Origin: Microcella alkalica
GTDB taxonomy: Bacteria > Actinomycetota > Actinomycetes > Actinomycetales > Microbacteriaceae
DNA length: 64,000 nt
Direction of reading: 5' to 3'
NCBI RefSeq assembly: GCF_014137945.1
Contig: NZ_JACGWX010000001.1
Coordinates: forward strand, 744,001 to 808,000
The position numbers and the translations under genes were made by a program. The stretch's first letter is position 1. The number at the start of each line of letters is the position of its first letter. Shown here piece by piece: positions 4,894 to 63,416 of the stretch. The notes under the pieces are model-generated. The model was not told where the DNA came from and did no database searches. It saw only the letters and a program-made list of their open reading frames with translations.

Positions 4894-6984
4894 CTAGGAG
4901 GCGATCGACTCGAGCGCGGCGGCGACGGCGGCCTCCGCCGTGATACCGAACTCGCGGAACAGCGTCTGGTAGTCGGCGGAGGCGCCGAAGTGCTCGATCG
5001 ACACCGCACGCCCGCGGGAGCCGAGATAGCGGCGCCACGACAGGGCGACTCCCGCCTCGATCGAGACGCGCGTGGTCACAGTGCTCGGGAGCACCGACTC
5101 GCGGTACTCCGCGCTCTGCTCCTCGAACCACTCCAGGCACGGTGCAGACACCACGCGGGCGTGCACCCCCTGGGCAGCGAGCTGCTCGCGCGCGGCAAGG
5201 GCGACCTGGACCTCGGACCCGGTGGCGATGAGCACGACGTCGGGCGAGCCGTTCGCCGCCTCGGCGAGCACGTAGGCGCCGCGGGCGACGTGGTGCGCGG
5301 CGGCCAGGACGTCGCCGGAGGCGGCGTCATCCCCCCGCTCGAACACCGGGATGTTCTGACGCGTCAGAGCGATGCCCGTCGGGCGGTCGTTGCGCTCGAG
5401 AACGGTCTTCCAGGCCCATGCCGTCTCGTTCGCGTCGGCGGGGCGCACGATGTCGAGCCCCGGAATCGCGCGGAGCGCGGCGAGCTGCTCGATCGGCTGG
5501 TGCGTCGGGCCGTCCTCGCCGAGCGCGACCGAGTCGTGCGTCCAGACGTAGGTGACGGGCACGCGCATGAGAGCGGCGAGGCGCACGGCGGGGCGCATGT
5601 AATCGCTGAAGATCAGGAACGTGCCGCCGAACACGCGAGTGCGGCCGTGCAGGGCGATGCCGTTGAGGATCGCGCCCATCGCGTGCTCGCGGATGCCGAA
5701 GTGGAGGATGCGGCCGTAGGGGTTCGCCTGCCACTCGTGCGTCGAGTGCTCGGAGGGCGCGAACGAGCCGCCGTTCGCGATCGTCGTGAGGTTGGACTCG
5801 GCGAGGTCGGCCGAGCCGCCCCAGAACTCGGGCAGGACGCCCGCGATCGCGTTGATGACCTTGCCGCTCGCGGCACGAGTGGACACGCTCGTCCCGCCCT
5901 CGAAGACGGGCAGAGCCGCATCGAGGCCCTCGGGCAGCTCTCCTGCGAGCATGCGATCGAGCAGCGCCTTCCGCTCGGGGTTCGCGGCGGCCCAGGCGTC
6001 AAAGCGCTCCTGCCAGGCGGCGTGACGCTCGGCCCCGCGGACGACGGCGCCGCGCGTGTGGGCGATGACCTCGTCGGAGACGACGAACGACTGCTCGGGG
6101 TCGAAGCCCATGATGGTCTTGGTGGCCGCGAGCTCCTCGGCGCCGAGCGCCGAGCCGTGGATCTTGCCGGTGTTCTGCTTCGTCGGCGCCGGCCACCCGA
6201 TGATCGTGCGCAGGATGATGATGCTCGGCTTCGAGGACTCGGCCTTGGCCTCCTCGATCGCGGCGTGAAGCGCGTGGACATCCTCCACGTACTCGCCGGT
6301 CTTCTTCCAGTCGACCGTCTGGACGTGCCAGCCGTAGGCGGAGTAGCGCGCGGCGACGTCTTCGGTGAAGGCGATGTCGGTGTCGTCCTCGATGGAGATC
6401 TGGTTCGAGTCGTAGATCACGACGAGGTTGCCGAGCTGCTGGTGCCCGGCGAGCGAGCCTGCCTCGCTCGTCACGCCCTCCTGCAGGTCGCCGTCGCCGG
6501 CGATCACGTAGACGTGGTGGTCGAAGACGCTCTCGCCCGCGGGGGTATCGGGGTCGAGCAGCCCGCGCTCGAAGCGCGCCGCGTAGGCGAAGCCGACGGC
6601 GGAGGCCAGCCCCTGACCGAGGGGGCCTGTGGTGATCTCGACGCCGTCCGTGTGACCGTACTCGGGGTGGCCGGGCGTCTTGGAGCCCCACGTGCGCAGC
6701 GCCTTGAGATCGTCGAGCTCGAGTCCGTAGCCGCCCAGGTAGAGCTGCACGTACTGGGTGAGCGAGCTGTGACCGGCGGAGAGGATGAACCGGTCGCGGC
6801 CGAGCCACTGCGGGTCGCTCGGGTCGTGCTCCATGACCTTCTGGTGCAGCAGGTACGCGACGGGCGCGAGGCTCATGGCGGTGCCCGGATGCCCGTTCCC
6901 CACCTTCTCGACGGCGTCGGCCGCCAGCAGTCGTGCAGTGTCAACCGCGGCGGAGTCGATCTCGTCCCAGGTCAGGTGGGTCAT
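4894..6984 (-). CDS. tkt: Transketolase
   Basis: Thiamine-diphosphate enzyme moving two-carbon units between ketoses and aldoses. The 696 residues are typical. Visible motifs are [10 protein letters not shown] near residue 30, the cofactor and metal motif GDGDLQEG followed by [11 protein letters not shown], and the pyrimidine-domain [10 protein letters not shown]. The ATG at 6984 begins [16 protein letters not shown]. In-frame GTG or TTG codons upstream lack homology-like sequence and a good ribosome-binding site. This is the first gene of the minus-strand operon continuing to opcA, and a TATACT hexamer about 165 bases upstream is the best candidate promoter. Confidence 0.96.
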
Positions 6985-7142
6985 TAGGGGGTACAGCCCT
7001 TTCTCGAATCGAGCCCGGTGGTGGTCGGGCGGAAGACTCTTGCCCAGATCACCGTTGATCGAGACCGCGGCCTGCTCGGGCTCCCGAGCGCGAGGCGATC
7101 GGGGCGCCCCCGTTTCGAGAGACGGACGTGGCGGCGGACAAG

Positions 7143-7156
7143 CCTCCCCAGTATAT
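7143..7156 (-). promoter_or_regulatory. Candidate promoter of the tkt operon
   Basis: On the minus strand a near-consensus -10 hexamer TATACT occupies 7155-7150. No clear -35 box sits 17 bases upstream. Transcription from about 7143 would give tkt a 5' leader of roughly 158 bases. The divergent ctaB promoter lies about 65 bases away. Confidence 0.45.
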
Positions 7157-7216
7157 GAGTCCGCTGGGAGGCGAGGAGCCTCCCCTCCTCCCGGCGGGGC
7201 ATCGGAACGGCTCGCG

Positions 7217-58819: not shown

Positions 58820-59527
58820 GTGAGCGAGCGCGCGACGGCACGGCGGGTCGTCGGCGGCCTGCGCCTGCTCGCCGCCCTCGTGGGGGTCATCGCGCTCGTC
58901 GCCCGCTTCCAGTACGGGCTCGGCTTCAGCGTCTTCATCGCGTCGAACTTCTTCGGCTACCTCACCGTGCAGTCGAACATCGCGGCGATCGCTCTCGGCA
59001 TCGTCTCGGGCACGATCGCGCTGCGCCGCTCGCGCGATCCGGCGTGGATGCCCGTGGCCCGCGTCGCGGTCCTCAGCCTGATGCTCGTGGCCGGCATCGT
59101 CTTCGCCCTCCTGGCCTCGCAGGCGGCGACCCGCGGCTACCGGCTCGACGTGCCGTTCAGCGACCAGTTGCTCCACTTCGTGCTGCCCGCCTGGCTGCTC
59201 CTGGACTGGCTGCTCTCGCCGGGAGAGCGCCGCACGGATCCGCGCGTCCTGCTCATCGTCGTCGGCTACCCGCTCGGCTGGGGCCTCGTGACGCTCATCC
59301 GCGGCGCGATCGTCGGCTGGTACCCGTACTTCTTCCTCGATCCCGACCAGGTGAGCGGCGTGATCGAGCTGCTCGCGTACGGGGCGGCGGCGCTGGGTCT
59401 GTTCGCGCTCGTCGCGGCCGTCGTGCGCCTCCTGCCGCGCATCCCCCTCGAGCGGATGCTGTCCCTCAGTCGCCCGAGGGCTCTCGTGCCCCCACGAGGG
59501 GAGCCAGCCCCGCGAGCGCAGCGGTGA
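58820..59527 (+). CDS. Pr6Pr-type membrane protein (FAR-17a/AIG1-like)
   Basis: The 235-residue protein has about six helices and a FFGYLTVQSNIAAI segment plus YPLGWGLVTLIRGAIVGWYPY, as in the Pr6Pr/AIG1-like family. Function is unknown. It starts with GTG 58820, two bases after DUF2834. Its last 62 bases overlap the convergent amine oxidase gene. The tail (RALVPPRGEPAPRAQR) is basic and cytoplasmic in style. Confidence 0.83.
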   Translation: MSERATARRVVGGLRLLAALVGVIALVARFQYGLGFSVFIASNFFGYLTVQSNIAAIALGIVSGTIALRRSRDPAWMPVARVAVLSLMLVAGIVFALLASQAATRGYRLDVPFSDQLLHFVLPAWLLLDWLLSPGERRTDPRVLLIVVGYPLGWGLVTLIRGAIVGWYPYFFLDPDQVSGVIELLAYGAAALGLFALVAAVVRLLPRIPLERMLSLSRPRALVPPRGEPAPRAQR

Positions 59528-60908
59528 CCGCATCCTCCTCGCCGAGCGCGCCGAAGCCGATCGCCCGCGCGCCCGCGACGACGCCGACGATCACGGGTTC
59601 CCCTGTCACGGCCTGGAGGTTGAGCCACAGGGGCACGGCCGCCTCCGGGTCGGCGAGCACCCAGAGCGCCGCCTCCTCGTCCCAGAACGGCTCGGCGTAC
59701 CGCAGCCAGATCGTCTCGATCGCGCCGACCCCGAGACGCGCGATCGCGGAGTCCTTCACCGCAGGCAGCTCGAGGTCGATGCCCCCCTGCTGCAGCACGC
59801 CGAGCGGCGCCGTCAGCACGACGCGGTCGGCCGAGAACGAGTCGCCCACCCCGAGGCGGACGCTCACCGAGTCCTCACCGACGGCGACGCCCGTCACGGG
59901 GCTCGACAGCTGCACATCGACGTCGTCGAGCAGGGCGTCGACGAGCCTGGCCCAGCCCCCCGTCACGAGGTTCTCGGCGCCGAGCGCGAGCTCGTCGAGC
60001 CCCGGACCGGCGGAGAGCACGCCACTCGCAGCGCCGAGCCGCGGCTCGACCAGCGCGGCGAGAGCGAGCGCGATCGTCTGCCGCTCGCTCGGACCGCCGT
60101 CGGGGCCCGGATCCTCCGACCACGGGCGCAGCAGCGCGAGCGCGGTCGCGAGGGCGACGTCGGGCTCGACCGTCTCGGCGGCGGCGCGGGCGCGCGCGAT
60201 GACGGGCAGCAGCGCCGCTTCGAGCGATGGCGGCTGGCCGGCCGGGGGGATCGGCCGCGTCGCCCCCTCGTCATCGAGCGCGAGCGCGGCATCCGCGATC
60301 GCGATCTCGACGCCGACGCGCACGAGCCGCTCGAGCAGGTCGTGGTCGGCGATCGAGCGGACCCACTGGGCGCCCAGCTCGACGGGCCCGGGCCACGCGC
60401 CGCTCTCGATCGTGTGGATGCGGCCCCCCGTGCGGCCCCGCGCCTCGAGGACGATGACCTCGAGGCCCTCCGGGCCGTCGTCGACGAGCAGGCGAGCGGC
60501 GGCCGCGCCGGCGATGCCCGCCCCGACGATCACGACGCGCTCTCCGGGCGCGGCGACCCCGAGGATCTCGGCGGCGGCGCGCTCGCCCGACGCGAGGGCC
60601 CCGTGAACGGTGGAGGGGGCATCCGTCGACGTCGCCTCGCCGGCGAAGAACAGCCGATCGCGCCAGGGGGCGGCGAGATCCTCGCGCAGTCGCGGCGACT
60701 CGCCCACCGGCAGGTAGCTCGACGATCCGCGCGAGAACGAGTCTCCGAGCCAGTCGCTGCGGGCGACGCCCGAGGGTCGGGGCGCGCCGACCGGCGGAGC
60801 GGGCGTCGGCTCGGGGGAGGGCTGCGGGCGCTCATCGGAGCACGCGGCGAGCACGGCGGCTGTGAGGCCCGTGGCCCCGATCAGGAAGGTTCGCCGTGTC
60901 ACGCCCAT
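59466..60908 (-). CDS. Flavin amine oxidase-like Tat/lipoprotein with circularly permuted motif order
   Basis: FAD oxidoreductase of 480 residues, exported as a lipoprotein: twin arginine TRRTF (residues 4-8) and lipobox LAAC with Cys23. In ordinary monoamine oxidases the FAD dinucleotide motif is N-terminal and the GEAT...VHGA segment closes the protein. Here the closing segment comes first: WLGDSFSRGSSSYLPVG (53-69), FFAGEAT (87-93), VHGALASGERA (101-111). The GAGIAG dinucleotide motif follows at 129-134, then LEARGRTGGR and GAQW. The C-terminus stops where the moved segment should begin. Substrate unknown. Start is ATG 60908. Confidence 0.88.
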   Translation of the reverse strand: MGVTRRTFLIGATGLTAAVLAACSDERPQPSPEPTPAPPVGAPRPSGVARSDWLGDSFSRGSSSYLPVGESPRLREDLAAPWRDRLFFAGEATSTDAPSTVHGALASGERAAAEILGVAAPGERVVIVGAGIAGAAAARLLVDDGPEGLEVIVLEARGRTGGRIHTIESGAWPGPVELGAQWVRSIADHDLLERLVRVGVEIAIADAALALDDEGATRPIPPAGQPPSLEAALLPVIARARAAAETVEPDVALATALALLRPWSEDPGPDGGPSERQTIALALAALVEPRLGAASGVLSAGPGLDELALGAENLVTGGWARLVDALLDDVDVQLSSPVTGVAVGEDSVSVRLGVGDSFSADRVVLTAPLGVLQQGGIDLELPAVKDSAIARLGVGAIETIWLRYAEPFWDEEAALWVLADPEAAVPLWLNLQAVTGEPVIVGVVAGARAIGFGALGEEDAVTAALAGLAPLVGAREPSGD

Positions 60909-61048: not shown

Positions 61049-61051
61049 GCG

Positions 61052-61135
61052 TGCGCGAGGGGGGACTTGAACCCCCACGCCCTTTCGGGCACTAGCACCT
61101 CAAGCTAGCGCGTCTGCCATTTCCGCCACCCGCGC
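61052..61135 (-). tRNA. tRNA-Leu (anticodon GAG)
   Basis: 84-base class II tRNA. The acceptor stem GCGCGGG pairs with CTCGCGC, the D arm GGCGGAAATGGCAGAC follows, and the anticodon arm CTAGC-TTGAGGT-GCTAG shows anticodon GAG. The long variable arm TGCCCGAAAGGGCG and a T arm with GTTCAAGTC are present. The discriminator is A, and CCA is not encoded. It reads CUC and CUU codons, CUC being very frequent in this genome. Confidence 0.95.
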
Positions 61136-61225
61136 TGGTCAGGTTCCTCCGCCGTGGCGGGGCAACCGAGAGACGACGATAGCACGTTCCGAGACGCCGC
61201 CAGCACCCGGGGTAGCGTGGTCGGC

Positions 61226-62569
61226 ATGGCAGGCCAGGAGCAGCTCGGCGAGACCGCTCGCATCGCCCGCGACCTCATCCGATTCGACACCACGAACCAC
61301 GGCGAGGGGCGCAGCAACGGCGAGACCGAGGCGGCCGAGTACGTCGCCGCGTTCCTCTCCGAGATGGGGCTCAAGCCCGAGCTCATCGACGCGGCGCCCG
61401 GCCGCACGAGCGTCGTCGCGCGCGTCGAGGGCAGCTACGCGAACCCCGTCGACACGACCCGCGGCGAGCGCCCCGCCCTCGTCGTCCACGGGCACCTCGA
61501 CGTCGTCCCCGCCGACCCCGCGAACTGGTCGGTCGATCCGTTCGGCGGCGAGATCCGCGACGGGATGCTGTGGGGGCGCGGCGCCGTCGACATGAAGAAC
61601 ATGGACGCGATGATCCTCACCTCCCTGCGCGAGATCCTCGCCGCTGGAGGTCGCCCGAACCGCGATCTCGTGGTCGCGTTCTTCGCCGACGAGGAGAACG
61701 GCGGCGCCTTCGGCTCGCACCACCTCGTCGAGCACCGCCCCGAGCTCTTCACGGGAGCCACCGAGGCGATCAGCGAGGTCGGCGGGTACTCGGTCGACAT
61801 CGAGGGCCAGCGCGCGTACCTGCTGCAGACGGGCGAGAAGGCCCTCGTATGGATCCGTCTGCGCACGCGAGGCACGGCGGCGCACGGCTCGCGCGTCATT
61901 CGCGAGAACGCCGTGACGAAGCTCGCCGAGTCGGTGGCGCTGCTCGGCCGGCGCGAGTGGCCCGTGCGGCTCACCGGGACGACGACGCAGCTGCTCGCCG
62001 AGCTCTCGCGCATCATAGGCACCGACCCCGAGGCGGTGGGGCCCGACGGCGCCGGCGCCGACGAGCTGCTGCTGCGCACCGGCACTGCCGCGGGGTTCCT
62101 CACGGCGACCCTGCGCACGACGAGCAACCCGACGCTCCTGAAGGCCGGATACAAGCACAACGTCATTCCCGACTCCGCGGAGGCCCTCATCGACATCCGC
62201 ACGCTCCCCGGCGAGGAGGACGCCGTGCTCGCCGAGATCCGAGCGATGCTCCCCGACGAGGTCGAGATCGAGGTCGTCACGCGCGACGTCGGGCTCGAGA
62301 ATCCGTTCTCGGGCGCCCTCGTGGAGGCGATGGTCGCAACGCTGATGCGCCACGACCCCGAGGCCCAGGTCATCCCGTACCTGCTGAGCGGCGGCACCGA
62401 CAACAAGGCGCTCAGCGAGCTCGGCATCACCGGCTACGGCTTCGCTCCCCTGAAGCTCACTCCCGACCTCGACTTCCCGGCGATGTTCCACGGCGTCGAC
62501 GAGCGCGTACCGCTCAGCGCGCTCGACTTCGGCCACCGCGCCCTCACCGACCTGCTCTCGACCTACTAG
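61226..62569 (+). CDS. M20-family metallopeptidase
   Basis: Zinc hydrolase of 447 residues. Metal ligands lie in VVHGHLDVVPAD (histidine and nearby aspartate), WGRGAVDMKNMDA (bridging aspartate), and DEENGG with the catalytic glutamate. The dimerisation domain contains GTAAHGSRV, and a final metal histidine is in FHGVDERVP. The substrate, a dipeptide or N-acyl amino acid, is unknown. The ATG at 61226 has TAGCGT ending seven bases upstream, suggesting leaderless transcription. uppP starts seven bases after its stop. Confidence 0.92.
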   Translation: MAGQEQLGETARIARDLIRFDTTNHGEGRSNGETEAAEYVAAFLSEMGLKPELIDAAPGRTSVVARVEGSYANPVDTTRGERPALVVHGHLDVVPADPANWSVDPFGGEIRDGMLWGRGAVDMKNMDAMILTSLREILAAGGRPNRDLVVAFFADEENGGAFGSHHLVEHRPELFTGATEAISEVGGYSVDIEGQRAYLLQTGEKALVWIRLRTRGTAAHGSRVIRENAVTKLAESVALLGRREWPVRLTGTTTQLLAELSRIIGTDPEAVGPDGAGADELLLRTGTAAGFLTATLRTTSNPTLLKAGYKHNVIPDSAEALIDIRTLPGEEDAVLAEIRAMLPDEVEIEVVTRDVGLENPFSGALVEAMVATLMRHDPEAQVIPYLLSGGTDNKALSELGITGYGFAPLKLTPDLDFPAMFHGVDERVPLSALDFGHRALTDLLSTY

Positions 62570-62576
62570 GAGCCGC

Positions 62577-63416
62577 GTGTCCCTCCTCGAAGCGATCATC
62601 CTCGGGCTCATCCAGGGCCTGACGGAGTTCCTGCCGATCTCCTCGAGCGCTCACCTGCGCATCGCGGGCGAGATCCTCCCGAGCGCCACCGACCCGGGCG
62701 CGACCTTCACCGCGATCACGCAGATCGGCACCGAGCTCGCGGTGCTCCTCTACTTCTGGAGGGACATCACACGCATCATCGGCCGCTGGTTCCGGCACTT
62801 CTCGCCGACCTCCGGCGTGCCGCGCACCGACCCGGATGTGCGGATGGGGTGGCTCATCATCATCGGCACGATCCCGATCGTGCTCGTCGGCTTCTTCGCG
62901 CAGGAGTACATCCGCTCGACCTTCCGCTCGCTCTGGCTCGTCGCGATCGTGCTCATCGTGTTCGGGCTCATCCTCGGTCTCGCCGACTGGCTCGGTCGGC
63001 GCACGCGCGAGCTCGACGAGCTCACCTATCCGCACGGCCTGCTCTACGGCGCCGCGCAGATGCTCGCCCTCGTGCCGGGAGTCTCGCGCTCGGGCGCCAC
63101 GACGACCATGGGCCTCGCGCTCGGCTACTCGCGACCGGCGGCGGCGCGCTACGCCTTCCTGCTCGCCGTGCCCGCCGTGTTCGGCAGCGGCTTCTACGAG
63201 CTGATCACGGCCTTCCGCGAGCCGAGCACAAGCCCCTTCGGCCCGCTCGACATCCTCGCCGCGACGCTCGTCGCCTTCGGCGTCGGGTACCTCGTGATCG
63301 CGGGGCTCATGCGCTACATCTCGACGCGCTCGTTCCTGCCCTTCGTGATCTACCGCGTCGTGCTCGGCACGGTCCTGCTGATCCTCCTCGGCCTGGGCGT
63401 CATCAACCCGCTCTAG
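62577..63416 (+). CDS. uppP: Undecaprenyl-diphosphatase
   Basis: Membrane phosphatase recycling undecaprenyl pyrophosphate for peptidoglycan synthesis and giving bacitracin tolerance. The 279-residue protein has eight predicted helices. Motif 1 is LGLIQGLTEFLPISSSAHL and the phosphatase motif is LALVPGVSRSGATTTMGL, both diagnostic of UppP/BacA. The GTG at 62577 follows AGGAG. Coupled to the M20 peptidase gene upstream. Confidence 0.96.
   Translation: MSLLEAIILGLIQGLTEFLPISSSAHLRIAGEILPSATDPGATFTAITQIGTELAVLLYFWRDITRIIGRWFRHFSPTSGVPRTDPDVRMGWLIIIGTIPIVLVGFFAQEYIRSTFRSLWLVAIVLIVFGLILGLADWLGRRTRELDELTYPHGLLYGAAQMLALVPGVSRSGATTTMGLALGYSRPAAARYAFLLAVPAVFGSGFYELITAFREPSTSPFGPLDILAATLVAFGVGYLVIAGLMRYISTRSFLPFVIYRVVLGTVLLILLGLGVINPL

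Follow-up and report, generated by a model that had tools for sequence, protein, structure and literature searches.

In what order does a flavoprotein gene of Microcella alkalica carry the two parts of the flavin amine oxidase fold, and is the reversed order that its motifs present a true circular permutation? The gene lies in contig NZ_JACGWX010000001.1, within the 64,000-nucleotide stretch (positions 744,001-808,000) that was analyzed here and is called the window. In the canonical order described by the Pfam profile PF01593 the FAD core (part A) comes first and the closing segment (part B) last. The window protein has these parts reversed: a Tat-type lipoprotein leader comes first, B follows, A adjoins it directly, and the chain stops at the point where B would ordinarily start. 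The reading favored here, to which we assign a probability of about 0.72, is that a circularly permuted flavin amine oxidase fold has been inherited here, with a Tat-exported, lipidated and membrane-tethered flavin oxidoreductase as its predicted product. The features of the locus are collected in Table 1.

Table 1. Features of the permuted flavoprotein locus, in window coordinates.
Feature	Position	Strand	Remarks
Permuted flavoprotein gene, whole	59466..60908	-	480 aa plus stop
Tat-type lipoprotein signal, residues 1-23 (RR 5-6; LAAC, Cys23)	60840..60908	-	Pattern in translation; conserved in relatives
Pro-rich linker, residues 24-42	60783..60839	-	Translation and relatives
Moved closing segment B, residues 43-118 (W53, GSSSY, FAGEAT, VHGA..SGERA)	60555..60782	-	C-terminal in canonical homologues
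Short B-to-A joint, residues 119-122	60543..60554	-	Spacing between two profile models
FAD core A, residues 123-474 (GAGIAG, E155, RxGGR)	59487..60542	-	Profile and PDB sequence matches
Thr399 codon	59712..59714	-	Column with flavin-side Lys in 29/32 canonical tree rows
Pr6Pr family membrane protein gene, convergent	58820..59527	+	NF038065; GTG start assumed
62-bp 3'-end overlap of permuted gene and Pr6Pr gene	59466..59527		Convergent pair

A PF01593 search of the window's own genome matches the locus twice, both times on the minus strand. Profile positions 368-443 match window positions 60561-60788 (E 1.9e-16) and profile positions 1-373 match 59475-60515 (E 3.5e-34); the 368-443 piece is the upstream one, so the end of the profile precedes its beginning in the gene. 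The whole window protein scores 174.6 bits against PF01593 in two stretches, the cut-off being 19.8. Solved enzymes reveal the same swap. With phmmer, query residues 120-185, 309-413 and 41-116 correspond to residues 2-63, 209-325 and 404-480 of the human spermine oxidase chain, and the match to the LSD2 PDB sequence is swapped in the same way. Together with many separately assembled genomes, these matches confirm the inverted motif order that an earlier note had read from the translation. The motifs lie where that note placed them: the twin arginine at residues 5-6, LAAC with Cys23, W53...FSRGSSSYLPVG, FAGEAT at 88-93, VHGALASGERA at 101-111 and GAGIAG at 129-134.

The permutation itself was addressed by rotation, using a profile built from 31 homologues of canonical order only. 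In native order the trimmed window protein gives two matches to this profile, of 210.9 bits (positions 2-350) and 85.7 bits (352-427). When B is put behind A, a single colinear match of 293.3 bits over positions 2-427 results, which supports the circular permutation proposed earlier. Rotation raised the score in 106 of 110 permuted rows (repeated loci included), by a median of 82 bits, and four rows showed no gain. If the whole mature window protein is rotated, leaving the Pro-rich linker and the tail in mid-chain, the two profile matches stay unmerged. A second GEAT/VHGA segment at the C-terminus, which had been named as grounds for abandoning the permutation, is absent: the three minus-strand frames past the stop, read by eye, hold no further closing segment. 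Exactly one B is present in each of 94 permuted ORFs. An HMM scan of the locus ORFs gives 104 with the order B-A, 62 with A-B, 17 with A alone, 3 with B alone and 2 with B-A-A, the last two being one gene in two overlapping loci with its core split into two pieces; the order B-A-B, that of a duplicated intermediate, occurs in none of the ORFs scanned.

All the FAD motifs are present in the window protein (G129-G134, E155, R159-R163 and G90-T93, from the translation and relatives), with core A at about residues 121-474 and segment B at about 43-118. The Tat-lipoprotein pattern of twin arginine, hydrophobic stretch and lipobox Cys23 is recognizable in the translation, as the earlier note had held. 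Its further suggestion, that the moved segment acts as the linker from the anchor, does not stand: conserved motifs of the fold lie within B, and it is connected to the lipobox by a distinct Pro-rich linker. The distance from the lipobox Cys to B has a median of 22 residues in the 85 of 89 distinct permuted ORFs that were measured. The B-to-A joint is five residues between the profile models in 83 of these 89 and three or four in another four; the core match is split in the other two. For the two closest orthologues, L009 and L010, dN/dS is 0.16 and 0.19 in B and 0.31 and 0.37 in A, and for the more distant third, L012, it is 0.52 and 0.55. These values indicate that both parts are under constraint.

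The AlphaFold2 model of the window protein, calculated from an alignment of 40 permuted proteins, has a mean pLDDT of 88.5 and a pTM of 0.87. Its 10-residue blocks in residues 41-120 have pLDDT values of 92-98, and most of the leader falls below 50. The FAD-site motifs are invariant or nearly so among the 40 aligned proteins. Foldseek, whose chain-order alignment is blind to permutation, lists LSD2, LSD1, a bacterial monoamine oxidase and maize polyamine oxidase as PDB neighbors of the model. The prediction is that of a single, confident fold for the permuted protein, in which the moved segment B is likely placed at the FAD site.

Permuted homologues are widespread in the Microbacteriaceae, and the orthologues of the same order that the earlier note had left to be looked for are found across the family. 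In a comparison of 60 relatives, a colinear match to the window protein is present in nine of 26 genomes of the genus (Microcella in the NCBI sense, which takes in Yonghaparkia and hence G002, Yonghaparkia sp. Root332), its own included and with the G008 copy truncated where the contig stops, and in a single genome from each of three further Microbacteriaceae genera. A canonical-order lipoprotein is present in five of the 26; none of the 26 has both forms, a sample too small to imply that one excludes the other. Of 398 Microbacteriaceae genomes searched with a profile, 190 have a match at 1e-20. By our own count of the listed rows, at least 134 of the 398 have a single colinear match with the closing part ahead of the core; this count takes in G372 (match in two adjoining pieces) and several short matches, e.g. 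G266, G342 and G405. All 30 loci retrieved from this survey are permuted by tblastn order. Permuted loci are found in Microbacterium, Cryobacterium, Agromyces, Rathayibacter, Herbiconiux, Frondihabitans, Leifsonia and Frigoribacterium, among other genera, and in the MAG loci L067, L071, L078 and L094. Further permuted forms are present in G524, G621, G751, G576, G595 and, broken off, in G775, none of them of the window's class, and in G834, G949 and G944. On sequence evidence, the permuted order is also present in some Actinomycetota beyond the Microbacteriaceae.

Some of the outlying homologues have features of their own. L182 (G775:C6:129886-130443) ends early in the core, in a 290-aa open frame, and is possibly a decayed copy. 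The permuted cores of L178 and L186 (G595 and G834) are without about 40-50 mid-profile positions (99-139 and 88-140). The frame of L190 (G949:C109:14733-16013) continues for about 107 residues past the permuted core, in sequence that by eye resembles a translated tRNA gene. L191 (G944:C11:53074-54267) is permuted and has a twin-arginine stretch, but no lipobox Cys was found, and it is perhaps anchored via its hydrophobic stretch. In L094, the ORF holding 5956-7209 is a 966-aa stop-to-stop frame with a permuted core and no lipoprotein leader; the in-frame upstream sequence resembles a GNAT acetyltransferase by eye, possibly indicating a fusion. A phage or plasmid origin of the permuted gene was considered and rejected: phage records contain no match to the protein, and none of the matches in 7 of 72,556 plasmid records covers 80% of the query. 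PHROGs gives two weak matches (best E 0.0003). The single short match in PADLOC (PDLC01086, residues 124-168, E 3e-11) is to the dinucleotide-binding part and says nothing on defence.

Phylogenetic trees of the re-ordered core and closing segment place most permuted rows in one starred clade, with 25 rows at 100/97 in the first tree and 19 permuted rows at 99/97 in the second. Permuted L078, L168, L178 and L094 fall among canonical rows in the first tree, as do L078, L168, L178/L186, L190 and L191 in the second, where L078 groups with canonical L087, L089 and L095 at 99/98. All permuted rows form one group in 0 of 200 bootstrap trees, in each of three tree sets. A single permuted clade is rejected in the 57-row set (p-AU 0.0064) but not in the first 65-row set (0.173); after L191, L179, L176, L180, L183 and L099 are dropped from the 57 rows, it is again not rejected (0.134). 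A grouping of the main clade with L078 against the canonical rows is not rejected (p-AU 0.105). Several origins of the permutation are favored by the trees, not established, and reversions to the canonical order are possible. A lipoprotein leader is detected by script pattern in 24 of 25 permuted and 8 of 32 canonical rows of the 57-row set; by eye the canonical lipoproteins number 10 of 32, L099 and L170 being added. Compared as independent pairs, permutation and leader yield three pairs on starred branches, which have no power.

The gene that converges on the permuted gene encodes a member of the Pr6Pr family (NF038065, 94.1 bits against a cut-off of 30), for which no Pfam match was found. 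It is the sole broadly conserved neighbor cluster, present in 43 of 49 permuted loci with flanks (window included), mostly convergent and at about 1.2 kb, and the next most widespread cluster is present in 10 of the 49. The Pr6Pr HMM matches 91 of 110 permuted rows, repeats included, versus 0 of 67 canonical rows, many of which come from short loci (3-4 kb, some reaching about 1 kb past the gene) that would miss a distant copy; permuted loci of 4.4 kb showed the gene. Fifteen of the 19 permuted rows without Pr6Pr lie outside the Microbacteriaceae, in L011 and L088 the contig stops on the side where the gene would lie, and the gene is missing from L039 and L075. The arrangement is different in L059 (same strand), L144 (upstream, same strand) and L064 (5.6 kb away). 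The 3' ends overlap in 28 of 42 measured convergent pairs, by 62 bp in the window. This pairing suggests a functional link between the two proteins.

The Pr6Pr neighbor has six or seven predicted helices, an AlphaFold2 pLDDT of 88.1, and Thr49 and His119 invariant in 32 homologues. No PDB entry matches its model at E 0.001 or better. The highest TM among the 50 listed is that of TMEM164 (9lw1), 0.46 with E 0.36, a modelled likeness that is a lead only; a literature search on this lead found nothing, and a search by name for the Pr6Pr family found no paper. On the other side of the permuted gene, window positions 61051-63413 hold a tRNA-Leu (gag) gene at 61051-61135 (-), immediately upstream of it, followed by genes for an M20 peptidase and a PF02673 (BacA family) protein.

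A lysine on the N5 side of the flavin matters for catalysis, i.e. for flavin reduction or reoxidation. This column holds Lys in 29 of 32 canonical tree rows and Thr399 in the window protein. Among the 89 distinct permuted ORFs two were unscorable, and the remaining 87 have K in 25, T in 40, Q in 10, V in 7, L in 2, and S, N and A in one each, so that the lysine is missing in 62. (L066, with T, and L070, with Q, both with a Pr6Pr neighbor, are counted as Microbacteriaceae without a tree.) It is kept in all 11 scored rows placed outside the Microbacteriaceae (L067, L071, L078, L094, L164, L167, L168, L178, L186, L190 and L191) and in the Cryobacterium permuted rows; the loss consequently seems to postdate the permutation rather than to result from it.

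These residues bear directly on whether the permuted protein keeps classical amine oxidase activity and, outside the cell, would convert an amine and O2 to an aldehyde and H2O2. Its FAD motifs are retained, as are the GSxSY and HGA..SG elements, and the 25 proteins with Lys, among them all those scored outside the Microbacteriaceae, would fit such an activity. The Thr of the window protein and of 40 of the 87, and the Q, V, L, S, N or A of 22 more, weigh against it, and we regard a classical amine oxidase as unlikely. Of the name "flavin amine oxidase" given earlier, the family fold and the FAD motifs hold up, but amine oxidation by the window protein is doubtful, the flavin-side Lys being Thr399 here and absent from 62 of 87 permuted proteins. 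The proper name is permuted homologue of the flavin amine oxidase fold, rather than amine oxidase.

Catalysis might also have been lost altogether, leaving a flavin-binding lipoprotein with a structural, sensing or electron-carrying role, perhaps together with Pr6Pr. The free variation at the lysine column would agree with this, as would a Pr6Pr pairing far better conserved than any other neighbor; the near-invariance of the FAD-site motifs in the 40 permuted proteins and the constraint on A and B would not, and such a loss seems less probable than a retained amine oxidase activity. Very improbable is a domain-swapped dimer, with the B of one chain packed against the A of its partner. The structure was predicted for a monomer. 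Against a dimer stands the B-to-A joint, which is short and constant in length across 83 of 89 ORFs, as expected if both ends meet within one chain. An assembly error, frameshift, hidden downstream frame or decayed canonical gene that mimics a permutation is refuted in practice by orthologues with the same order in many independent genomes, there being also no downstream closing segment, constraint on both parts, and no point found in its support.

If the circular permutation is accepted, the protein would fold with FAD in the cytosol and then be exported by the Tat system and lipidated, giving a flavin oxidoreductase that is tethered to the membrane on its extracytoplasmic side. The native termini, which must then be close together, would be replaced by the short B-to-A joint, and the new chain ends would lie in the loop that leads from the last helix of the core to the opening strand of B. 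With the ends in that loop, the anchor would exit there and not from the N-terminus of the FAD domain, and the enzyme would face the membrane differently. As the leader keeps its place at the front, the anchor would be attached to a different loop after permutation, and this may be why the permuted order has been retained. Since most sampled permuted proteins of the Microbacteriaceae are without the flavin-side Lys, the substrate is probably not a classical amine oxidized with O2 as the acceptor; as a guess, the conservation of Pr6Pr as a partner may hint at a lipid or some other membrane-borne substrate. A bolder scenario is that membrane-anchored proteins of Actinomycetota had the fold cut open and rejoined at one and the same loop on several occasions, because a closing segment brought to the front shifts the anchor and turns the active site to the membrane, and that the Microbacteriaceae form then repeatedly lost the Lys and works with Pr6Pr on a membrane-borne substrate. 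Taken as a whole, this scenario is speculative and we would not expect all of it to hold.

The window protein shares its fold elements and FAD motifs with spermine oxidase (7oxl), LSD2 (7xe1), LSD1, a Thermoanaerobacterales MAO (8p84) and maize polyamine oxidase (1b37), and differs from these solved flavin amine oxidases in segment order, in the Tat-lipoprotein leader and in Thr for the flavin-side Lys. Canonical Tat-lipoprotein homologues from the same genus (L020-L024), and L087, L089 and L095, share the leader type and homologous A and B. They differ in having the order A-B and no Pr6Pr beside them; the Lys is kept in the same-genus rows and is Arg in L089 and L095. In the excerpted text of PMC11334425, FMN-bind domain proteins are extracytosolic flavoproteins that are likewise permuted in nature; these have another fold and cofactor attachment, and there a C-terminal helix is displaced in a multi-domain protein. 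Duplication with loss and fission with fusion are the models of natural permutation given in the excerpt of PMC3320104, where swaposin and transhydrogenase are further natural cases in other folds; no duplicated intermediate was found for the flavoprotein. An older paper by Murzin, as cited in the excerpt of PMC2395249, concerns a probable permutation in a flavin-binding domain, and the excerpt of PMC6957218 has nothing on amine oxidases. No naturally permuted flavin amine oxidase came up in searches of the open-access literature (listings and abstract openings) on permuted oxidases of amines, monoamines and polyamines and on permutation in natural flavoproteins.

Flavin amine oxidases are a large superfamily with much-studied human members. 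Domain annotation names the permuted gene yet hides the reversed order of its parts. The pairing with Pr6Pr offers a testable partner for this family of membrane proteins. As a single genus holds both the permuted and the canonical form, each behind a Tat-lipoprotein leader, it would allow a direct test of how the position of the chain ends relates to membrane seating and substrate.
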